From Clostridiaceae bacterium (GTDB lineage: Bacteria > Bacillota > Clostridia > DSM-8532), in the NCBI GenBank assembly GCA_012728095.1, contig JAAYFU010000024.1, positions 1 through 64,000 on the forward strand: DNA of 64,000 nt, written 5' to 3'. Positions 542-55,847 of the stretch are shown in pieces. The position numbers and the translations under genes were made by a program. Position 1 is the first letter of the stretch. The number at the start of each line of letters is the position of its first letter. The notes beneath the pieces were generated by a model. It saw nothing but the letters and a program-made list of their open reading frames with translations. It was not told the DNA's origin and did no database searches.

Positions 542-2692
542 ATGGGACCGTTAAAGTTATCCGGGAAAAAAGGTGACAAACCTAAAACAAAAATCGTTAA
601 AACCAGGACTCCTAAAACAAAATCCCACAATAATGAAACTATTATGGCAAAAATAAGACAAAGTTTTCGAAAGATACGTTTTAAACTTATAGGGGCATTT
701 ATAGTGCCTGTAGGTCTTATGATACTGCTTGGCATCATATCATACTCAAAAGCATCGACGGGAATAATAAAGGATTTCGAGAGCGCGAGCGAAACAACTC
801 TAAATATGCTAAGCCAGTACTACAATCTCGGTCTGGAATCCTTATATGTAAAAGCTACACAAATAAATTCCAATGAAAAGGTAAAAAAGTATTTTTCGGG
901 TATTCGTTATGATGAAACCACAAATGAAGAGATAACCTTTAACGAAGTGCAATCCCTTGTTACATCAATTGCCATGACCGATAAAATGCTGAACAGCGTA
1001 TTTGTGATTCCTAAAAACGGAGAGGGGATCTCAAATTACAAAGTACTCCCGGCAGATACATATCAGCGGTTCCTGGAATCTGATGAGGGAAAGAAACTTC
1101 CCAATTTGGGCCTGGTAAACTATTGGGCCGGCTACCATAAATATTTGGACAGGGTTGTGTCAGTTGGCGAAAATCATTATTGTATGTCCCTTTATAAAAA
1201 TCTTTATGATAAGAACTACAATGTAATTGGCTATATAATTTTGGATGTCAAAATGGATTTTGTGAAGGAAGCCCTGAACCAGCTTAATCTGGGAGAAGGT
1301 ACCATTACGGCATTTGTTACAGATGACGGACGTGAGATTTACACCAAAGCTCCGGAGGGAGATTTCTCTTTCACTTCCCAGGAATACTATCAAATTTCAA
1401 AATCAGGTGAAGAATTAAGCGGACACAGCTATGAAACTTATAACGGCAAGGAGTATCTGTATCTGTATTCAAAAGTAAAAAGCGGAAATGCAATGATATG
1501 CTCGCTTATCCCCAAAGATATGATAATAAAACAAGCCGAAGATGTTAAAATGGTAACATTAATAGTGGTTATAATTGCATGTATTATTGCTATTATGACC
1601 GGTTCCATTATTTCATCCGGTATAAGCAAAACCATAAATAATATAAACAGCGGCTTGTCCAAAGCTGCTACGGGTGATTTGACGGCAATAGTGAAGACTA
1701 ACAGGAAAGACGAATTTTTGGCCCTGACGACGAGTATAAATAATATGATAGCCGCGATGAGGTCGTTGATTACAAAAATGGCAGGAGTAAGCGAAAATGT
1801 CGCATCCTCCGCCGTAGAGGTATCAAAAAACTCCGGGCTTTTCCTGGAGGCTGTTAAACAGATTACTAATTCCATAAACATTATAGATCAGGGTCTATCA
1901 CAACAGGCCGCCGATTCAGAGGTTTGCCTGAATCAGATGGAAGGTCTGTCCAATCAAATAGACAGGTTGACTGAAAAAACCTCTGATATGAACAACATTG
2001 CCAATTTAACAAAGGAGGTTGTAAACTCAGGTATTGGAATAGTAGACGATCTGAATCGTAAATCGAAAGATACCGTTAACATTACTCAATCGGTTATCGA
2101 AGATATACAGCGCCTTGAAGCCGAATCGTCAACGATAAGCAATATCGTGGCTACTATCGACAATATTTCAAGGCAGACAAACCTGCTTTCACTGAATGCC
2201 TCCATAGAAGCTGCAAGAGCAGGAGATGCAGGTACCGGATTTGCTGTTGTGGCGGATGAAATACGCAAGCTTGCCGAACAATCCGCAGCCTCTGCTAAAC
2301 AAATCGGCTTGATTATTAAGAATATTGAAGCTCAGACAGAAAAAACGGTATTAACGGCTAAAAAAGCAGAAAGTATTGTATCTTCCCAGGAAAAAGCATT
2401 GCAGAAAACCATAGAGATATTCTCGGATATCAATAAACAAGTAGAGAGTCTTGTGGAAAGCATTGATGTGATACTGGACGGAATCGGTAAAATTGAAGTA
2501 GCGAAGAAAGATACTTTATATGCGATAGAAAGCATATCAGCGGCGTCCGAAGAGGCTACTGCTACTTCAGGAGAATTAAAAATGACAGCCGATAATCAAC
2601 TGAGTACGGTTGAACTCCTGAATAAGGCTGCAGAAAGACTTAAAGCAGATGCTAAGAACCTGGAAGAAACCGTTCACATTTTCAAGATGTAA
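542..2692 (+). CDS. Methyl-accepting chemotaxis protein
   Basis: Membrane chemoreceptor of 716 aa that would signal to CheA/CheW. After a lysine-rich cytoplasmic tail of about 45 residues comes a first membrane helix (about 49-67). A periplasmic sensor region of roughly 270 residues follows, then a second helix near 335-358, a HAMP segment, and a long coiled-coil signalling domain. That domain contains the family hairpin tip ([18 protein letters not shown] and the following [13 protein letters not shown]). The start at 542 is chosen because GGAGG lies 6 bases upstream; an ATG 30 bases earlier has no ribosome site. It sits just upstream of a sugar-binding protein of the ChvE type, a class known to work with chemoreceptors, so a sugar ligand is a reasonable inference. 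Confidence 0.93.
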
Positions 2693-2716
2693 TTTGATTT
2701 AAGATTTAAGGATGGT

Positions 2717-2810
2717 AATAGCACTTTTTTTACAGAAAAAATATTGCTATACAGTATATTAAACACATTCAAAAGGAAAAAATTTATAGCATTTAATAAA
2801 CAATTGCTAT
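2717..2810 (+). promoter_or_regulatory. Paired ATAGCA/TGCTAT motifs upstream of the sugar-binding protein
   Basis: Two inverted pairs occur here: ATAGCA at 2718 with TGCTAT at 2745, and ATAGCA at 2786 with TGCTAT at 2805. They lie between the chemoreceptor and the binding-protein gene and could be operator half-sites. The regulator is not known from the sequence. Confidence 0.3.
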
Positions 2811-2867
2811 TGCCTTCATGTTATAGTTTGTACAGAAGAAATTAAAATAATCAGGAGGGAAAAATCA

Positions 2868-4025
2868 ATGAAAAATCTGAAAAGACTGTTGTCAATCGCT
2901 TTGGTACTGGTTATGGTTATAGCATTGGCCGCTTGTGGTAGTCAGCAGACTCCAGATAGTACAACGACTCCTTCAGCTCCAGCTGAGCAGCCCAGCCAGG
3001 CTCCTGCAGAGCAGCCGCAGACTGGTGCTGGTAAGAAAGTTGGCGTTACAATGCCCACAAAATCACTCCAGAGATGGAATGAAGACGGTGCCAACGTAAA
3101 GGCAGCACTTGAGGCAAAAGGATACACAGTAGATCTTCAATATGCTGATAACAAACAGGATGTTCAGAACAGCCAGATCGAGAACCAGATCACAATGGGA
3201 TGCGATGTTCTCGTAATCGCTTCAATTGACGGTGGCGCACTGGGCGGCGTTCTCCAGCAGGCAAAAGCTGCGAACATCCCCGTAATAGCATACGACAGAC
3301 TTTTGACAAATACAGATAAATGCGATTACTACGCTACATTTGATAACTATGGCGTTGGTAAAATGCAGGGCGAATTCATAGAGCAAGCTCTTGGCCTTGA
3401 CAAAGGCGCAAAAGGCCCGTTCAATTTGGAATGCTTCGGCGGAGACCCGGGTGATAATAATGCTTACTTATTCAACCAGGGTGCAATGGACGTTCTGCAG
3501 AAATACATAGACAGTGGTGTTCTGGTTGTAAAATCTGGCCAGACCAAGTTCCCGGATCAGATAGCTATTACCAACTGGGATTCCAAGGCTGCTCAGGACA
3601 GAATGGATAACCTCTTAACCGCTTACTATGCTGACGATATTGTTCACGTTGTATTGTCTCCTAACGACAGCCTTGCACAAGGTATCGTAGCTTCCTTGAA
3701 GTCAGCAGGATATGGCTCAGCAGGCAAACCCTACCCGGTTCTCACAGGTCAAGACTGCGACAAGATCAATGTAGGCCAGATTATCCGCGGCGAGCAGTCC
3801 ATGTCAATATTCAAGGATACCAGAGTACTTGCAAATCAGGTTATTGCTATGACAGATGCGATCCTTGCAGGACAGCAGGTACCTACAAACGCTACATATA
3901 ACAACGGTGTAATTGATGTTCCTTCATACAACTGCGAGATTAAGTTCGCAGACAAGAACAACTGGAAAGAATTGCTGGTTGACAGCGGTTACTATCAGTT
4001 GTCTGATATTCCGGACGCACAATAA
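2868..4025 (+). CDS. chvE: Monosaccharide ABC transporter substrate-binding lipoprotein (ChvE/XylF type)
   Basis: Extracellular sugar-binding lipoprotein of 385 aa. The signal peptide ends in the lipobox LAAC (lipidated Cys23), followed by a Pro/Gln/Ala linker. The mature part is a type I periplasmic-binding fold beginning KVGVTMPTKSLQRWNEDG and containing YDRLL and SPNDSLAQG segments, typical of the ChvE/XylF group of pentose and hexose binders. AGGAGGG lies 8 bases before the ATG. It is followed by an ATPase and a permease of the same system, with a hairpin in between. The exact sugar cannot be read from sequence; xylose, glucose, galactose and arabinose are all seen in the group. Confidence 0.9.
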   Translation: MKNLKRLLSIALVLVMVIALAACGSQQTPDSTTTPSAPAEQPSQAPAEQPQTGAGKKVGVTMPTKSLQRWNEDGANVKAALEAKGYTVDLQYADNKQDVQNSQIENQITMGCDVLVIASIDGGALGGVLQQAKAANIPVIAYDRLLTNTDKCDYYATFDNYGVGKMQGEFIEQALGLDKGAKGPFNLECFGGDPGDNNAYLFNQGAMDVLQKYIDSGVLVVKSGQTKFPDQIAITNWDSKAAQDRMDNLLTAYYADDIVHVVLSPNDSLAQGIVASLKSAGYGSAGKPYPVLTGQDCDKINVGQIIRGEQSMSIFKDTRVLANQVIAMTDAILAGQQVPTNATYNNGVIDVPSYNCEIKFADKNNWKELLVDSGYYQLSDIPDAQ

Positions 4026-4229: not shown

Positions 4230-5765
4230 ATGTCGGAATATATTCTTGAAATGAGAAATATAACCAAGGAATTCCCTGGCGTCACCGCTCTGAGTAATGT
4301 TACTTTTAAAGTTAAGAAGGGTGAGATTCATGCCCTCGTTGGAGAAAATGGGGCAGGCAAATCTACACTGATGAATGTATTAAGTGGTATTTATCCTTAC
4401 GGCTCATATAGTGGTGACATTATTTATAAGGGACAAGAGTGCAGATTTAGGACTATTCGTGATAGTGAAGCAGTGGGAATTGCTATAATCCATCAGGAAC
4501 TGGCTCTTAGTCCTTACTTGACTATCGCTGAAAATATTTTTCTAGGGAATGAAAGGGCTAAACACGGTATAATAGACTGGGATGAGACCAATAAAGAAGC
4601 CACCGAGTTGTTAAAGACGGTCGGACTGAACGAGAAATGCTCCACGCAGGTAAGGAATATAGGTGTTGGCAAGCAGCAGCTTGTTGAGATAGCAAAGGCA
4701 CTCGGTAAAAAGTGTGAACTGTTGATACTGGACGAGCCGACAGCTGCCCTGAACGATGATGATTCAGAGCATCTTCTTAATCTTTTGAAGAGGTTAAATA
4801 AAGAGCAGGGCCTGACATGTATCATGATTTCCCACAAGCTACACGAAGTTTTAAGCATTGCCAACAGCATTACCGTACTGAGGGACGGGAAAACAATTGA
4901 GACCCTTGATAATTCGGTCCCTGTTAGTGAGAACCGTATAATTAAAGGAATGGTTGGACGTGAACTTACGGACCGTTTCCCGAAGCATACCCCGAAAATT
5001 GGTGAGGTAGGCTTTGAAATAAGGAATTGGACTGTATATGATCCTCTCAATGAGGAAAGGATTGTTATTGATAATGTAAACATGAAATTCCGAAAAGGTG
5101 AAATAGTAGGACTTGCCGGGCTTATGGGTGCCGGAAGAACCGAGCTTGCTATGAGTGTTTTCGGAAGAGCATACGGCACAAAGATAAGCGGAACCCTTAT
5201 CAAGGATGGCAAGGAGATAGTACTGCATAATGTAGAACAGGCAATAGAAAATGGAATTGCCTATGTTACTGAAGACAGAAAGCAAGCCGGATTAATACAC
5301 ATACAAGATATTAAATCCAATATAACACTGGCCAATTTGAAACAAATCACAAACGGTTTCGTTGTAAATGAAGATGAAGAAATTGTTATAGGTAAGGAAT
5401 ACAGGGAACGGTTCAATATAAAGTCAACAAGTGTATTCCAAAAAGTAGGTAATCTTTCTGGAGGAAACCAGCAGAAAGTTGTATTAAGCAAATGGATATT
5501 TGCCGCACCCGATGTGTTGATTCTTGATGAACCTACCAGAGGAATTGACGTTGGTGCCAAATATGAGATATACAAGATAATCTTACAGTTGGCGGATGCC
5601 GGAAAATGTGTTATTGTGATTTCTTCCGAACTGGTTGAGATACTGGGTATCACAGATCGCCTGTATATTATGAATGAGGGACGTGTAGTAGGCGAAATGA
5701 AGACTAGCGAAGCGACCCAGGAAGAAATCATGTCCATAATAATCAGGAGTTCTGCTGGGCGATAG
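4230..5765 (+). CDS. mmsA: Monosaccharide ABC transporter ATP-binding protein (MmsA/GguA type)
   Basis: Cytoplasmic ATPase of 511 aa with two fused nucleotide-binding domains, as usual for sugar importers of the RbsA/XylG/GguA class. Domain 1 has Walker [10 protein letters not shown] near residue 38, a Walker [11 protein letters not shown] and an HKLHE switch. Its signature is degenerate (RNIGVGKQQ). Domain 2 has a degenerate Walker A region (GLMGAGRTE), the signature LSGGNQQK and [11 protein letters not shown]. The pairing of one degenerate and one canonical half is the family pattern. AAGGAG precedes the ATG by 7 bases. It is followed by its permease 11 bases later. Confidence 0.93.
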
Positions 5766-5776
5766 GGGGAAGATGT

Positions 5777-7000
5777 ATGAAGAAAATGAAGGAATTTATA
5801 AACTCTAATATTCGGCAATATGGAATGATTTTTGCCCTGGTTGTAATTATGATTTTGTTCATAATCATAACCGGAGGCAAGCTCATATGGCCAAGAAACG
5901 TGTCAATGCTGGTACGGCAGAACGCTTACGTGTTGATACTTGCCATAGGAATGATGTTTTGTATTCTGACAGGCGGCAATGTCGACCTTTCGGTTGGTTC
6001 TATCGTAGCCCTGGTCAGTGCTATGTCGGGTATGTTGACCACAACCATGGGTCTACCCAGTTGGTTTGCAATTCTTATAAGTCTTATAACCGGTCTTTTG
6101 GCAGGGATATGGCAAGGTTTTTGGATCGCTTTTGTTAAAGTTCCGCCGTTCATAACCACCCTTTCAGGTATGCTTATTTTCCGCGGTATTGACAACTTGA
6201 TACTGAACGGTCAAACATTACCACTTTCTGGTTTGTATGTAACAATCGGTACAGGTTCAGTACCCGATATTTTACCCAATACTATACCTGAATTTTTGCG
6301 TGTTGGTGATTTTCTGAAACTTCAGAATAAACCCGAGTATCTTAATGCGACAATGCTTTTTGTAGGGTTTATTCTGTCCATAGTATACGTGTTTGTCGTT
6401 TTCTTAACCAGGAAAAGTAAAAAGGCAAGGGGATATGAAGTTCCTTCCATGCAATCAGTTATTGCAAAAGTAATTGCATTCTTTATCATTATAAACATAT
6501 TCTCATACTGGCTTGCCATGGATGAAGGTTTACCCATCATGCTGATATTACTGGTAGCCTTATATGCAATCTATACCTTTATAGCTACAAAAACCATACC
6601 GGGGCGGCACGTGTATGCAATGGGTGGAAATCTTAAAGCGGCAGAGCTTTCCGGCGTCAATACCAAGAAGATGATGTTCCTTGTATATTCGAATATGGGA
6701 CTGTTAGCCGGTGTTGCAGGTATAGTTACTGCCGGAAGATTGATGGCTGCATCACCTAATGTCGGTCAAAGTTTTGAGCTTGACGCCATTGGCGCATGCT
6801 TTATAGGAGGCGCTTCTGCAACTGGCGGCGTAGGAACGATATGGGGAGCAGTTGTAGGTGCCTTTATCATGGGCGTTATGAACAATGGTATGTCCATCAT
6901 TGGATTGAACGTATTCTGGCAGTCTATAGCAAAAGGTATGGTAGTATTGCTGGCCGTTGCATTCGACATGTACTCAAAATCAAAGTCAAGACTTGGCTGA
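5777..7000 (+). CDS. mmsB: Monosaccharide ABC transporter permease (MmsB/GguB type)
   Basis: Integral membrane permease of 407 aa with about ten hydrophobic segments. It carries the sugar-permease signatures GNVDLSVGS early and GGNLKAAELSGVN late, where the cytoplasmic loop contacts the ATPase. The glycine-rich segment IGGASATGGVGTIWGAVVG is typical of the RbsC/XylH/GguB family. It is longer than RbsC because of an extra loop and helix pair around residues 170-260, as in GguB/XylH. GGGGGAAG sits 5 bases before the ATG. It is the last gene of the operon; a terminator follows at 7037. Confidence 0.92.
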   Translation: MKKMKEFINSNIRQYGMIFALVVIMILFIIITGGKLIWPRNVSMLVRQNAYVLILAIGMMFCILTGGNVDLSVGSIVALVSAMSGMLTTTMGLPSWFAILISLITGLLAGIWQGFWIAFVKVPPFITTLSGMLIFRGIDNLILNGQTLPLSGLYVTIGTGSVPDILPNTIPEFLRVGDFLKLQNKPEYLNATMLFVGFILSIVYVFVVFLTRKSKKARGYEVPSMQSVIAKVIAFFIIINIFSYWLAMDEGLPIMLILLVALYAIYTFIATKTIPGRHVYAMGGNLKAAELSGVNTKKMMFLVYSNMGLLAGVAGIVTAGRLMAASPNVGQSFELDAIGACFIGGASATGGVGTIWGAVVGAFIMGVMNNGMSIIGLNVFWQSIAKGMVVLLAVAFDMYSKSKSRLG

Positions 7001-7036
7001 TTGCTATAAGTAAACTAAGATTTTCAGAAGTTAAAG

Positions 7037-7088
7037 AAAGACAACCGAGCTTTACGTAACGATATAAGTGTCGGTTGTCTTTTATTTG
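7037..7088 (+). terminator. Intrinsic terminator of the first sugar transporter operon
   Basis: Perfect 12-bp stem AAAGACAACCGA/TCGGTTGTCTTT with a 22-nt loop and a T-rich tail (TTATTT). Confidence 0.85.
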
Positions 7089-7150
7089 GTTTTATGAACC
7101 TATGATATTATATGATATTATTAAATCTCCGGAAGGATTGCGAATGGTAT

Positions 7151-7179
7151 GCAACATGGCAAAATACTTGCCATGTTGC
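7151..7179. terminator. Perfect hairpin at the 3' end of the ammonium transporter gene
   Basis: 12-bp perfect stem GCAACATGGCAA/TTGCCATGTTGC with a 5-nt loop, 4 bases beyond the stop of the leftward ammonium transporter gene. There is no clear U-run in that direction, so it may act as a 3'-protecting structure or a weak bidirectional terminator. Confidence 0.55.
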
Positions 7180-7182
7180 TTC

Positions 7183-8943
7183 TTATTCGTATTCCTTGTC
7201 CTGCAGCGCGTCATATCCTTCTTCACCGGTGCTTATTCTTATGACATTTTCAACATCGTAAATAAAGATTTTTCCATCTCCCATATTGCCGGTATATAAT
7301 GCTTTCTTAACCGTATCAACCAGCACCTGGGTGGGTATCTTACACACAACAATGTCTACCTGAACTTTAGGAAGAAGCCTTGTTTTTACCGGCACGCCGC
7401 GGTAATATTCGGTATGTCCTTTTTGCATTCCATAACCAAGCACATTGGTAACAGTAAGTCCTGTAATGCCTATTCTATCAAGAGCAGCCTGCAAACCAGG
7501 GAACTTCTCCTGGTTTGTGATGATGGTAACCTTTGTCATCTTTGCCCCGGGACGTGCCTTATTGACAACAGGAATGGCAGCTTCAGGGGACACAGTGCCG
7601 GGAGAAGGTTCAAACGCTTCAACAGTACTTATTGACGCAGCCTTGTCTACAGTGCCGTTACCTGTAGCCATTATTGGGGCTACGATGGCAAAATCGGGAT
7701 AAGCCGAGTTGCCGTGCTCGCCGATATCAAGACCTTGGATTTCTTCTTCAAGGCTGACACGAATTCCGATTGTCTCTTTAATCAGATACCATACCAAAGA
7801 AGACGAAGCAAATGTGAATATGCCTACCGCGATTATACCAATGATTTCTACTCCCAGCAGTGAGAAACCGCCGCCAAAGAATAATCCGTTAACCGTGGAG
7901 AGACTGGTAACCCCTTCCTGGGCGAAGAGCCCGACGCAGATTGTCCCGAAAACTCCGCAAACCAGGTGAACCGAAGTTGCGCCAACCGGATCATCAACTT
8001 TTATCCGGTCAAAAAACAGTACTGCAAATACTACGATAATGCCGGCTATTGCGCCTATAACAAGAGAACTTGCGACACTCACATAAGCGCAGCTTCCGGT
8101 GATGCCCACAAGACCCGCCAGACAACCGTTAATGGTCATGCCAAGATCCGGCTTTCCAATGAAGATCCATGACGTAGCGGTGGCGGTAAGTACAGCAGCA
8201 ATTGCTGCGGTATTGGTTGTTACAAGGATATGCACAACATCTCCAGGGTTTTGAAAACTCATGGTAGACCCGGGATTAAAACCGAACCATCCGAGCCACA
8301 GAATGAAAAGACCTAAAAATGCCAAAGACATGCTATGACCGGGAATGGCCTTCGGTTTACCGTCTTTATCATATTTTCCGTAACGCGGACCAAGTATAAT
8401 GGCTCCGGCCAAAGCTGCCCAGCCGCCTACAGAGTGGACCACGGTATCTCCGGCAAAATCCAGAAATCCAAGGTTGGCCAGCCAGCCCCCTCCCCAAATC
8501 CAGTGCCCTACAATAGGGTAAATGACAAGGGTCAATATAAAGGAAAACACAATGAAGGAAATGTACTTAACCCGCTCTGCAACTGCTCCAGATACAATGG
8601 TTGCCGCGGTGCCGCAGAAAACCAGCTGGAAAAAGAATTTTCCCCAGAATGGTACATTTGATGTGAGAGTATCCTTGTAAAAATCCAAATTGGAATTATC
8701 CAGGATAAACAATTCCTTTGTCCCGACAATCGGGTTGTCTCCACCAAACATCAATCCCCAGCCCAGAAGCATGAATCCAAGAGAAGAGACCGCAAATACG
8801 ATAAAGTTTTTTGACAGGATATTGACCGTGTTTTTTGATCTTGCAAATCCGGATTCGACCGCCCCGAAACCGAGATTCATAAAGAAAACCAATACGGCTG
8901 CCAACAGTACCCAAAGGGTATCAACGATCATTGTAACATTCAT
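7183..8943 (-). CDS. amt: Ammonium transporter with fused C-terminal P-II domain
   Basis: Membrane ammonium channel of 586 aa. Residues 1 to about 400 give an 11-helix Amt/MEP/Rh channel with the family motifs GHWIWGGGWL, DFAGDTVVHSVGGWAALAG and GFNPGSTM. A flexible Pro/Ala/Thr linker of about 70 residues leads to a complete P-II signalling domain. That domain has the T-loop (GHTEYYRGV), LPKVQVDIVV, GDGKIFIYDVE and RISTGEEG. P-II proteins normally bind Amt in trans and block it; here the regulator is tethered. The T-loop position that is uridylylated in enteric GlnB is not a tyrosine (GVPVKT in place of GAEYMV), so regulation by ATP/ADP/2-oxoglutarate is more likely. AGGAGG lies 9 bases before the ATG. 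Confidence 0.93.
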   Translation of the reverse strand: MNVTMIVDTLWVLLAAVLVFFMNLGFGAVESGFARSKNTVNILSKNFIVFAVSSLGFMLLGWGLMFGGDNPIVGTKELFILDNSNLDFYKDTLTSNVPFWGKFFFQLVFCGTAATIVSGAVAERVKYISFIVFSFILTLVIYPIVGHWIWGGGWLANLGFLDFAGDTVVHSVGGWAALAGAIILGPRYGKYDKDGKPKAIPGHSMSLAFLGLFILWLGWFGFNPGSTMSFQNPGDVVHILVTTNTAAIAAVLTATATSWIFIGKPDLGMTINGCLAGLVGITGSCAYVSVASSLVIGAIAGIIVVFAVLFFDRIKVDDPVGATSVHLVCGVFGTICVGLFAQEGVTSLSTVNGLFFGGGFSLLGVEIIGIIAVGIFTFASSSLVWYLIKETIGIRVSLEEEIQGLDIGEHGNSAYPDFAIVAPIMATGNGTVDKAASISTVEAFEPSPGTVSPEAAIPVVNKARPGAKMTKVTIITNQEKFPGLQAALDRIGITGLTVTNVLGYGMQKGHTEYYRGVPVKTRLLPKVQVDIVVCKIPTQVLVDTVKKALYTGNMGDGKIFIYDVENVIRISTGEEGYDALQDKEYE

Positions 8944-53154: not shown

Positions 53155-54018
53155 ATGAAAAAAACTATCGCAATTACTTTAATTATGGTTATGTTAATAT
53201 CGATGTTCGCCGGATGCGGCCGTATAGCGCCTAATTCAGGAGCATCAAGCAAAAAAGTAAAGGTTATTGATATCCCGCTGACACAGGAAGAATACGCTTT
53301 CGGTGTTGACAAGAATCAGCCCGAACTGCTTGAAAAGGTTAATGAATTCATTGCCAAGATTAAGGAAGACGGTACATTTGATGCAATTCTTGATAAGTAT
53401 TTCGGCGATGGAACCCCTGAGCCTGTTATGTCGGCAGAACTTGACAGCAGCAAAGATCAGCTTGTTGTAGCTACAAATGCCGGGTTTGAGCCTTTTGAAT
53501 ACACCGAAGGCGACAAATACCTGGGTATTGATATGGAAATCGCTAAACTTCTTGCTGATTATCTTGGGAAAGAACTGGTTATAAGCAATATGGATTTCGA
53601 CGCTGTTTGTCTTTCGGTAGGACAGGGCAAGGCTGATATAGCGATGGCAGGTCTTACCATAAAAGAAGACAGAAAAGCATATGTAAATTTCTCGGACAAA
53701 TACTATGACGCTGCGCAGAAGCTGATAGTTATGGCAGACGATACGACCTTCGACAATGCAAAAACGGCGGAGGACGTAGAGGCTATTCTTTCAAAGTTTG
53801 ACAGCAGTGTCAAGATTGGCGTACAAAATGGTACTACAGGCCAATTCTATGTCGAGGGCGTTGAAGATTGGGGCTTCCCCGGTTTCAAGACCCAGTGTAT
53901 CGGTTATAAATCAGGCTCATTGGCGGTTCAGGACATGATTAACGGAAATATTAACTACGTTATCATAGACGAAGCTCCTGCCCACTTTATTGCTGAAGCA
54001 ATTAACGAACTCAATTAA
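53155..54018 (+). CDS. Polar amino-acid ABC transporter binding lipoprotein, apparently circularly permuted
   Basis: Lipoprotein of 287 aa (lipobox FAGC, Cys21) of the type II solute-binding family 3. Residues 33-85 carry the stretch that normally ends such proteins (VIDIPLTQEEYAFGV, LLEKVNEFIAKIKEDGTFD, ILDKYFGDG). After a linker (86-100) comes the normal beginning (QLVVATNAGFEPFEY). The remainder (YLGIDMEIAKLL, AGLTIKEDRKAYVNFSD, VQNGTTGQFY) ends at VIIDEAPAHFIAEAINELN, exactly where the displaced stretch would usually follow. The fold can still close because both original ends lie in the same lobe. ATG 53155 has GAGGAGG 9 bases upstream. It lies upstream of its permease and ATPase. Confidence 0.88.
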   Translation: MKKTIAITLIMVMLISMFAGCGRIAPNSGASSKKVKVIDIPLTQEEYAFGVDKNQPELLEKVNEFIAKIKEDGTFDAILDKYFGDGTPEPVMSAELDSSKDQLVVATNAGFEPFEYTEGDKYLGIDMEIAKLLADYLGKELVISNMDFDAVCLSVGQGKADIAMAGLTIKEDRKAYVNFSDKYYDAAQKLIVMADDTTFDNAKTAEDVEAILSKFDSSVKIGVQNGTTGQFYVEGVEDWGFPGFKTQCIGYKSGSLAVQDMINGNINYVIIDEAPAHFIAEAINELN

Positions 54019-54062
54019 TTGAAAAAGGGCTGTTCATATAAATAATTATAGATTAAATATTG

Positions 54063-54194
54063 GAGGCTAACTCAGATAAAACCGTCATACTGGAATGAAT
54101 GTTATTCTTTGTGCAGAGAAAGGATATACATACCAGATCGAGATATCATTTAACATGTTTCATTCCAGGATGACAAACCGCTTGAGCTAGCCTC
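54063..54194. repeat. 132-bp long inverted repeat inside the amino-acid transporter locus
   Basis: Outer arms GAGGCTA/TAGCCTC and inner arms GTCATACTGGAATGAA/TTCATTCCAGGATGAC (one mismatch) surround a centre of about 60 bases. It has no coding capacity. It looks like a miniature palindromic element or a large RNA hairpin. It occupies much of the 310-base gap between the binding-protein and permease genes. The remaining bases to 54328 are A+T-rich. Confidence 0.78.
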
Positions 54195-54328
54195 TTCTGA
54201 TATGTTTTAAGATATTTTAAAGTATGTTCCATATAATATATGTTGTATAAAATAAAATCTTTTCATATATGTTATTATTTTGATATTATTATTGTATAAT
54301 CATAGGAAGAGTTTTAAAGGAATGCGAT

Positions 54329-55039
54329 ATGGGTAATTTTGGTAAGAAGATTGAAGTATTCTGGAAAATGTTTTATGAGTCCAATGGCTATACGAAAGTT
54401 CTCACCGGATTGCAGAATACTATGTATATAGCCACGGTCGGATTAGCCATCGGAATTGTAATCGGTACGATAATTGCTATTATTGCGGTTATTCCGAAAT
54501 ATAAGCGTCTACCCAGGATACTGGACAGATTTTGTAAGTTTTATGTAGGGTTATTCCGAGGCACACCGGTTGTCGTACAGCTTTTAGTGTTTTATTATGT
54601 AGTTTTTCCGCTGATGGGAGTAAAAATGCCGTCTGTTAATGTCTGTGTCCTGGTATTTGGTCTGAACAGCGGCGCGTATGTATCGGAAATTATGCGAAGC
54701 GGCATCATGTCGGTTGATCCGGGGCAATTGGAAGCAGCCCGCGCGGTAGGCTTAAGCTTTGGAGTATCCATGATGAAGGTTGTGGTTCCCCAGGCAGTCA
54801 AAAATATATTGCCGACACTGGGAAACGAGTTTATTGCGCTGATAAAGGAAACCTCGGTAGTAAGCTTTGTGGGAGCCGCCGATTTATATGTCGCATTTAA
54901 TTACATAGGTACCAACAGTTATGAATTCATGGTTCCATATCTTGTAATGGCATTGATTTATATTGTCCTGGTAATGGCAATAGCGCTGCTTGTAAGAATC
55001 ATGGAAAGGAGCCTAAGAAAAAGTGATAGACATAATTGA
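54329..55039 (+). CDS. Polar amino-acid ABC transporter permease
   Basis: Membrane permease of 236 aa of the HisMQ/GlnP type with five helices. It has the N-terminal TM/GLxNTM signature ([19 protein letters not shown]), the middle segment [19 protein letters not shown] and the EAA loop [28 protein letters not shown], which docks to the ATPase. Only one permease is present, so it would act as a homodimer. The weak ribosome site AAAGGAA is 7 bases upstream. It overlaps the ATPase gene by 17 bases. Confidence 0.93.
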
Positions 55040-55847
55040 TTTAAGAAAGCGATATGGCAACCTGGAAGTACTTAAAGGGATTACGAATACTATTCACGAA
55101 GGCGAAAAAGTCGCTATTATAGGCCCTTCCGGAAGCGGTAAAAGCACTTTTCTCCGTTGTCTTAACTGCCTGGAAGATCCCACAAGCGGGCAAATTATTT
55201 TTGAAGGCGTTAATATCGCAGATATGAAGGTTGATATAAATATCCACCGCCGTCATATAGGCATGGTTTTTCAGCAGTTCAATCTATTTAACAATAAAAC
55301 CGTAATAGATAACATAATGCTGGCGCCTTTGCATATCAAAATATCCGAACTTCGTAAAAAGAAAATTAAAAATTTTTTCATTAAGCTGCGGAATGTATTT
55401 ACCCCCGACAAAAAGCCTTTGTATGAGATAAATACCACCAAAGCACAGATCAAAGAAGAAGTAAGAGCTAATGCCATGCGTCTGCTAAAAAGAATAGGAC
55501 TAGAAGACAAGGCCAATGCTTTCCCTTCCACGCTTTCAGGCGGACAGAAGCAAAGGATAGCCATAATCCGGGCCCTGGCAATGAATCCTAAAGTGATGCT
55601 GTTCGACGAGCCTACATCCGCCCTGGACCCTGAAATGGTAGGAGAAGTGTTGGATTTAATCAAACAATTGGCTGATGAAGGGATGACCATGGTTATCGTA
55701 ACCCATGAAATGGGTTTTGCAAGGGAAGTGGCTACCAGGGTATTGTTTATGGATGAAGGCATGATTGTTGAAGAAAACACTCCGGAAGAAATCTTTAACA
55801 ATCCCCGTAATCCCAGGACTAAAGAGTTTTTATCCAAAGTCCTGTAG
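55023..55847 (+). CDS. Polar amino-acid ABC transporter ATP-binding protein
   Basis: ATPase of 274 aa with Walker [11 protein letters not shown]-loop VFQQFNLF, signature LSGGQKQR, Walker [13 protein letters not shown] and switch VTHEMGFA. Compared with GlnQ/HisP-type proteins of about 240 aa it carries an extra basic segment of about 35 residues ([18 protein letters not shown] and following) between the Q-loop and the signature. The GTG start is supported by AAAGGAG about 12 bases upstream and by overlap with the permease gene. Likely uptake of glutamine, histidine, arginine or a similar amino acid. Confidence 0.93.

Follow-up and report, generated by a model that had tools for sequence, protein, structure and literature searches.

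Evidence for a circularly permuted amino-acid receptor lipoprotein in a clostridial ABC importer, and for recurrent changes of segment order in Clostridia

The 64,000-nucleotide stretch of contig JAAYFU010000024.1 analysed here (referred to as the window) carries, at positions 53155 to 55847, what is with a probability of roughly 0.9 an amino-acid ABC importer with a circularly permuted receptor, and the changes of segment order of which this receptor is an example have recurred in Clostridia. Conventional receptors of this family carry their three segments in the order N-M-C, with the C segment at the C terminus. Judged from its sequence, the window receptor is a type II receptor of the SBP_bac_3 family in the variant order C-N-M. 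It departs from the family in this order and has the features that define a permutant, since the old termini are joined, the new termini lie elsewhere, and every segment is present once. The initial annotation had proposed a circular permutation, and the sequence, an AlphaFold2 model, and homologues of the same order all support it.

The receptor gene (53155 to 54018, forward strand) was identified by its open reading frame, a match to Pfam SBP_bac_3, and matches to proteins in the PDB in swapped order. The reading frame spans 53155 to 54015 and encodes 287 amino acids, with the stop codon at 54016 to 54018. It begins with a lipoprotein signal peptide (53155 to 53217) ending in the lipobox FAGC, whose cysteine (Cys21, 53215 to 53217) is kept in at least 90% of 60 homologues. 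The C segment follows (residues 34 to 86, 53254 to 53412) and was delimited by PDB matches to the C termini of chains and by the predicted secondary structure. It consists of the edge strand of the small lobe (VKVI), hinge 2 (residues 43 to 47), and the strand and two helices by which the large lobe is closed. A linker placed by homologue alignments (residues 87 to 98, 53413 to 53448) leads from the old C terminus to the old N terminus. Behind it lies the N segment (residues 99 to 195, 53449 to 53739), which begins the large lobe and extends through hinge 1 (residues 183 to 187); it is covered by the Pfam match and by a segment HMM and maps to residues 4 to 94 of the glutamine-binding protein GlnBP. 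The M segment (residues 196 to 287, 53740 to 54015), which forms the small lobe according to the mapping onto GlnBP and the AlphaFold2 model, ends the chain with its last helix. The swapped PDB matches uphold the earlier observation that a C-terminal family-3 segment lies behind the lipobox and ahead of the usual first strand. Its boundaries, however, needed correction: a 12-residue linker separates the lipobox cysteine from the segment, which had been described as following directly, and the segment starts at residue 34 instead of about 41, because the short strand ahead of the hinge belongs to it.

Residues 34 to 85 alone matched the ends of chains in the PDB, namely AncCDT-1 (residues 198 to 245 of 247, E value 5.8e-8), AncQR (183 to 233 of 233, 7.6e-8), GlnP (413 to 456 of 460, 3.8e-8), and Escherichia coli GlnBP (177 to 222 of 226, 0.003). 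Residues 102 to 276 matched the same receptors in their N-terminal and middle regions (AncQR 11 to 171). The Pfam match (PF00497) has an E value of 3.3e-33 and 114.7 bits against a cut-off of 26.4, with its best stretch starting at residue 103. The C terminus, VIIDEAPAHFIAEAINELN, lies exactly where a conventional protein would continue with VKVIDIPLTQEEYAFGV; the latter is absent behind it, so that the protein does end where the moved segment should start, as had been claimed.

The AlphaFold2 model of the receptor, built with 60 homologues, has a mean pLDDT of 89.1 and a pTM of 0.77. The moved segment is predicted to form strand, strand, helix, and helix (residues 35 to 38, 45 to 52, 56 to 71, and 74 to 83), with block mean pLDDT values of 87 to 98. 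Foldseek, a sequential aligner that is blind to permutation, gave a best TM of 0.4 to 0.5 against the PDB; it returned partial sequential matches only, and no solved permuted relative was evident by this search. The two-lobed fold of the unpermuted type is inferred from homology, without a permutation-aware superposition.

In GlnBP, the large domain comprises residues 5 to 84 and 186 to 224, the small domain residues 90 to 180, and the hinge residues 85 to 89 and 181 to 185 (PMC7400645). By alignment, the two hinge stretches correspond to residues 183 to 187 (hinge 1) and 43 to 47 (hinge 2) of the window receptor. The new N terminus is inferred to enter through a small-lobe strand about nine residues ahead of hinge 2, and the C terminus to be the last small-lobe helix. 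Because the leading strand belongs to the small lobe, both hinge crossings would remain, and the idea of a single crossing in the permuted chain was dropped after the mapping. By homology, the receptor would fold into an ordinary two-lobed Venus flytrap with the linker bridging its old termini, and the lipid anchor, like the new termini, would sit in the small lobe next to hinge 2, a new place for it, as the initial annotation had supposed. The receptor would then close on an α-amino acid and hand it to the adjoining permease as usual.

The positions of Phe13, Phe50, Gly68, Thr70, Arg75, and Asp157 of GlnBP are taken in the window receptor by F111, F148, G166, T168, R173, and D272. Arg75 is invariant across all orders and the other five contacts are nearly so; the window protein thus has, in R173, D272, T168, and G166, the contacts expected for an α-amino acid. 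Asp10, Lys115, and His156 of GlnBP, which we take to be side-chain contacts, correspond to Asn, Gln, and Ile, and the ligand therefore need not be glutamine.

Downstream on the same strand lie a permease of the polar-amino-acid type (54329 to 55039; TIGR01726, HEQRo_perm_3TM, above cut-off) and a GlnQ-like ATPase (55023 to 55847; GlnQ model, 3.4e-89, below the equivalog cut-off). Both adjoin the receptor gene in nearly all loci of the window clade, and the exceptions are mostly loci truncated by one end of their own sequence. With a permease of the His/Glu/Gln class and an ATPase beside it, the receptor is, by inference from homology and gene order, part of an amino-acid importer; uptake and ligand are likewise inferred, without substrate data. 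No riboswitch was found near the window gene, and riboswitches in 16 related loci gave no clue to the substrate, the only elements there being a c-di-GMP riboswitch and CRISPR repeats. Between its Q-loop and signature motif, the ATPase carries an extra stretch of about 34 residues (approximately 55338 to 55436), recognised by a spacing of 91 to 93 in most members of the window clade (loci L014 to L093) versus 57 in nearly all others. This insertion was rejected as a general companion of permutation, as other permuted clades lack it. In a draft genome of Acetivibrio straminisolvens, the permease is split into two overlapping reading frames, possibly by a sequencing frameshift (L034, positions 4921 to 5630), and the same locus has CRISPR repeats at 8483 to 8802. 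Two contigs of one assembly (L043 and L044, positions 6579 to 8084 in each) carry the permuted operon and, behind it, a fusion of a conventional receptor with a permease.

E. coli GlnBP (GlnH) and other type II members of SBP_bac_3 (1GGG, AncQR, and AncCDT-1) share the segments, the α-amino-acid contacts, and the type of importer operon with the window receptor, but have the order N-M-C and their termini in the large lobe, whereas in the window receptor the order is C-N-M and, by homology, both termini belong to the small lobe. Among natural proteins, the closest precedent is TpMglB-2 (Tp0684) of Treponema pallidum, a permuted type I receptor for which the name "Type Ic" was proposed; it still binds glucose and undergoes a change of shape, and its topology has been reported in many Gram-positive bacteria (PMC4990184). 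Both are natural circular permutations of a lipid-anchored ABC receptor, but TpMglB-2 is a sugar receptor with a fold of a different class, and there it is the first strands of one lobe that have moved to the C-terminal part. The window receptor does not qualify as Type Ic, its sequence and Foldseek matches being type II amino-acid receptors. No natural permutation within SBP_bac_3 was found described in the open-licence literature, a scope that includes no bioRxiv preprints and few subscription papers; within it, and apart from the type I precedent, the initial statement that no case was known in this transporter class holds. Ancestral sensor proteins have reportedly been subjected to circular permutation, judging by the title of a work that PMC7683729 cites as its reference 53; these are laboratory designs rather than natural proteins, and that they belong to the same receptor class is an assumption.

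For 164 loci the order of segments was called with one HMM per segment (C, N, and M), which gave 114 C-N-M, 22 M-C-N, 26 N-M-C, 3 M-C-N-M, and 1 M-C-N-M-C-N. Clostridia hold all three cyclic rotations (N-M-C, C-N-M, and M-C-N) and a fourth form that is cut within the small lobe; proteins that begin with the small lobe turned up in a class-wide search. The three M-C-N-M receptors (L139, L140, and L141), cut within the small lobe, form one clade beside an M-C-N protein (L138). Three loci (L125, L126, and L127) encode an M-C-N receptor fused to the permease in a single reading frame of 501 to 537 residues, and in these the last strand of the permuted receptor continues into the membrane domain. 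The M-C-N-M-C-N case is a 779-residue reading frame (L164, positions 1454 to 3790) with two tandem M-C-N domains and a permease. Two families, f17 (L116, L108, and L161) and f65 (L105, L125, and L149), each contain N-M-C, C-N-M, and M-C-N receptors. Full-length matches to the C-N junction were found in about 58 of the 391 sampled Clostridia genomes among the matches listed, with 17 in the family of the window and a few elsewhere in the phylum; the order was confirmed on the DNA for most, though not all, of them. The search queries favoured adjoining C and N segments, hence cuts in the small lobe, so that cuts within the large lobe could have escaped. No M-C-N relative was found in viral contigs.

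A tree was built from the segments restored to one common order (about 220 alignment columns), and the order label requires nine changes on it. AU tests reject a single clade for C-N-M (p = 1e-10), for M-C-N (p = 1.6e-4), and for all permuted forms together (p = 2e-59), and one ancient permutation inherited by all is rejected accordingly. The tested clades were chosen after the orders had been seen, and these p values overstate the certainty of the deep branches, because the alignment is short. The window receptor is one of several independent permutations in the SBP_bac_3 family. Values of dN/dS are 0.06 to 0.11 in permuted copies, close to those of conventional copies (with dS near saturation in places), and the permuted receptors are maintained under purifying selection.

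A recent permutation was found in one genus of family f42, whose species have either a normal or a rotated receptor at one and the same position in the chromosome. Of this genus, 59 genomes were searched and gave 56 matches, and among the species with a classified locus 17 have the order C-N-M and 31 the order N-M-C, the former being one clade (99/94) nested among the latter. The shared upstream gene was found next to the receptor in 15 of the 17 permuted species and in 23 of the 31 conventional ones, and the permease and ATPase follow in all except L186; in some loci the available sequence does not reach far enough to include all neighbours. When the DNA of a permuted locus (L115) and a conventional one (L153) is compared, the upstream region and signal peptide are in register at 69% identity. 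The C segment (81%) then stands ahead of the N-M part of about 530 bases (83%) rather than behind it, and the downstream terminator and the permease-ATPase pair are again in register. The permuted C-N junction carries the motif FTTVE.GKL, which in the nearest conventional relatives stands after the lipoprotein linker. Its retention fits a route in which the mature domain was duplicated and the outer parts were then lost.

An origin by tandem duplication and trimming, put forward in the initial annotation, remains the likeliest route and agrees with these junctions; it is an inference, and no duplicated intermediate for C-N-M was seen among the loci examined. The mature domain would first have been duplicated in frame and in tandem, after which N-M would have been lost from the first copy and C from the second. 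Changes of order have taken place several times in Clostridia and produced the C-N-M, M-C-N, and small-lobe-cut forms. The tandem receptor of Lactococcus GlnP (6H30), in which the end of domain 1 running into domain 2 is collinear with the permuted receptor, gives a picture of how C and N can come to adjoin, although its two domains are complete and conventional. The absence of the intermediate leaves room for a cut-and-paste transfer of the DNA of the C segment without duplication and deletion, whose end product would look alike. However, a conventional FTTVE.GKL at the junction is what a second mature domain placed behind the first would be expected to leave, and tandem receptor domains do exist, as in L164; cut-and-paste is thus rather unlikely.

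A broader reading, which can be held only tentatively, is that SBP_bac_3 in Clostridia is a hot spot of permutation, where all rotations have arisen, some of them repeatedly, and where the anchor in the small lobe is recurrent and maybe selected. That the permutation is adaptive, the anchor in the small lobe helping the receptor to close, dock, or fold at the cell surface and thereby explaining the recurrence, is more doubtful still. By homology all permuted orders found do put the termini in the small lobe, the permuted receptors are under the purifying selection described above, and a benefit of tethering was proposed for TpMglB-2 (PMC4990184). Yet the queries were biased toward just these orders, both orders coexist in one genus under similar constraint, and there is no functional measurement.

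Instead of being permuted, the receptor could have acquired an extra N-terminal piece, since fusion can supply a spare segment, and have lost its own C-terminal closure, of which the bare C terminus might be a sign. This is very improbable, because nothing is missing from the moved segment, which is also strongly conserved and confidently predicted, and because in the young sister case the front segment has the 81% DNA identity to the C segment of its relatives while a C-terminal copy is absent.

Homologues with the same order, which the initial annotation had asked for, are present in many genomes. The C-N-M receptor is full length in 12 of the 14 genomes of the genus, the source genome included, and in all 80 public loci kept from a scan that took a single genome for each species, among them loci of named strains such as Acetivibrio mesophilus, A. 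straminisolvens, Thermoclostridium caenicola, and Thermobacillus xylanilyticus; it also occurs in three single-contig genomes (G203, G231, and G353). A collapsed or chimeric assembly of an ordinary tandem pair of receptor genes, a worry raised at the outset, to which the origin of the contig in an 82-contig assembly and the ability of chimeras to mimic permutation lend some weight, is set aside by these independent assemblies with hardly any doubt left.

The permuted receptor of the window is thus part of a set that models of the Pfam SBP_bac_3 type hide, such proteins passing as ordinary matches with a missing end. Circular permutations in nature are mostly inferred by comparing distant homologues, which makes their origin hard to see. 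With one genus holding both orders at one locus in alignable DNA, the path from N-M-C to C-N-M becomes open to study in orthologous pairs. These pairs are also natural templates for permuted biosensors and offer a test of whether the position of the membrane anchor matters. If Clostridia are indeed a hot spot of permutation for this family, an anchor in the small lobe may be favoured by selection for altering how the tethered receptor meets its permease.
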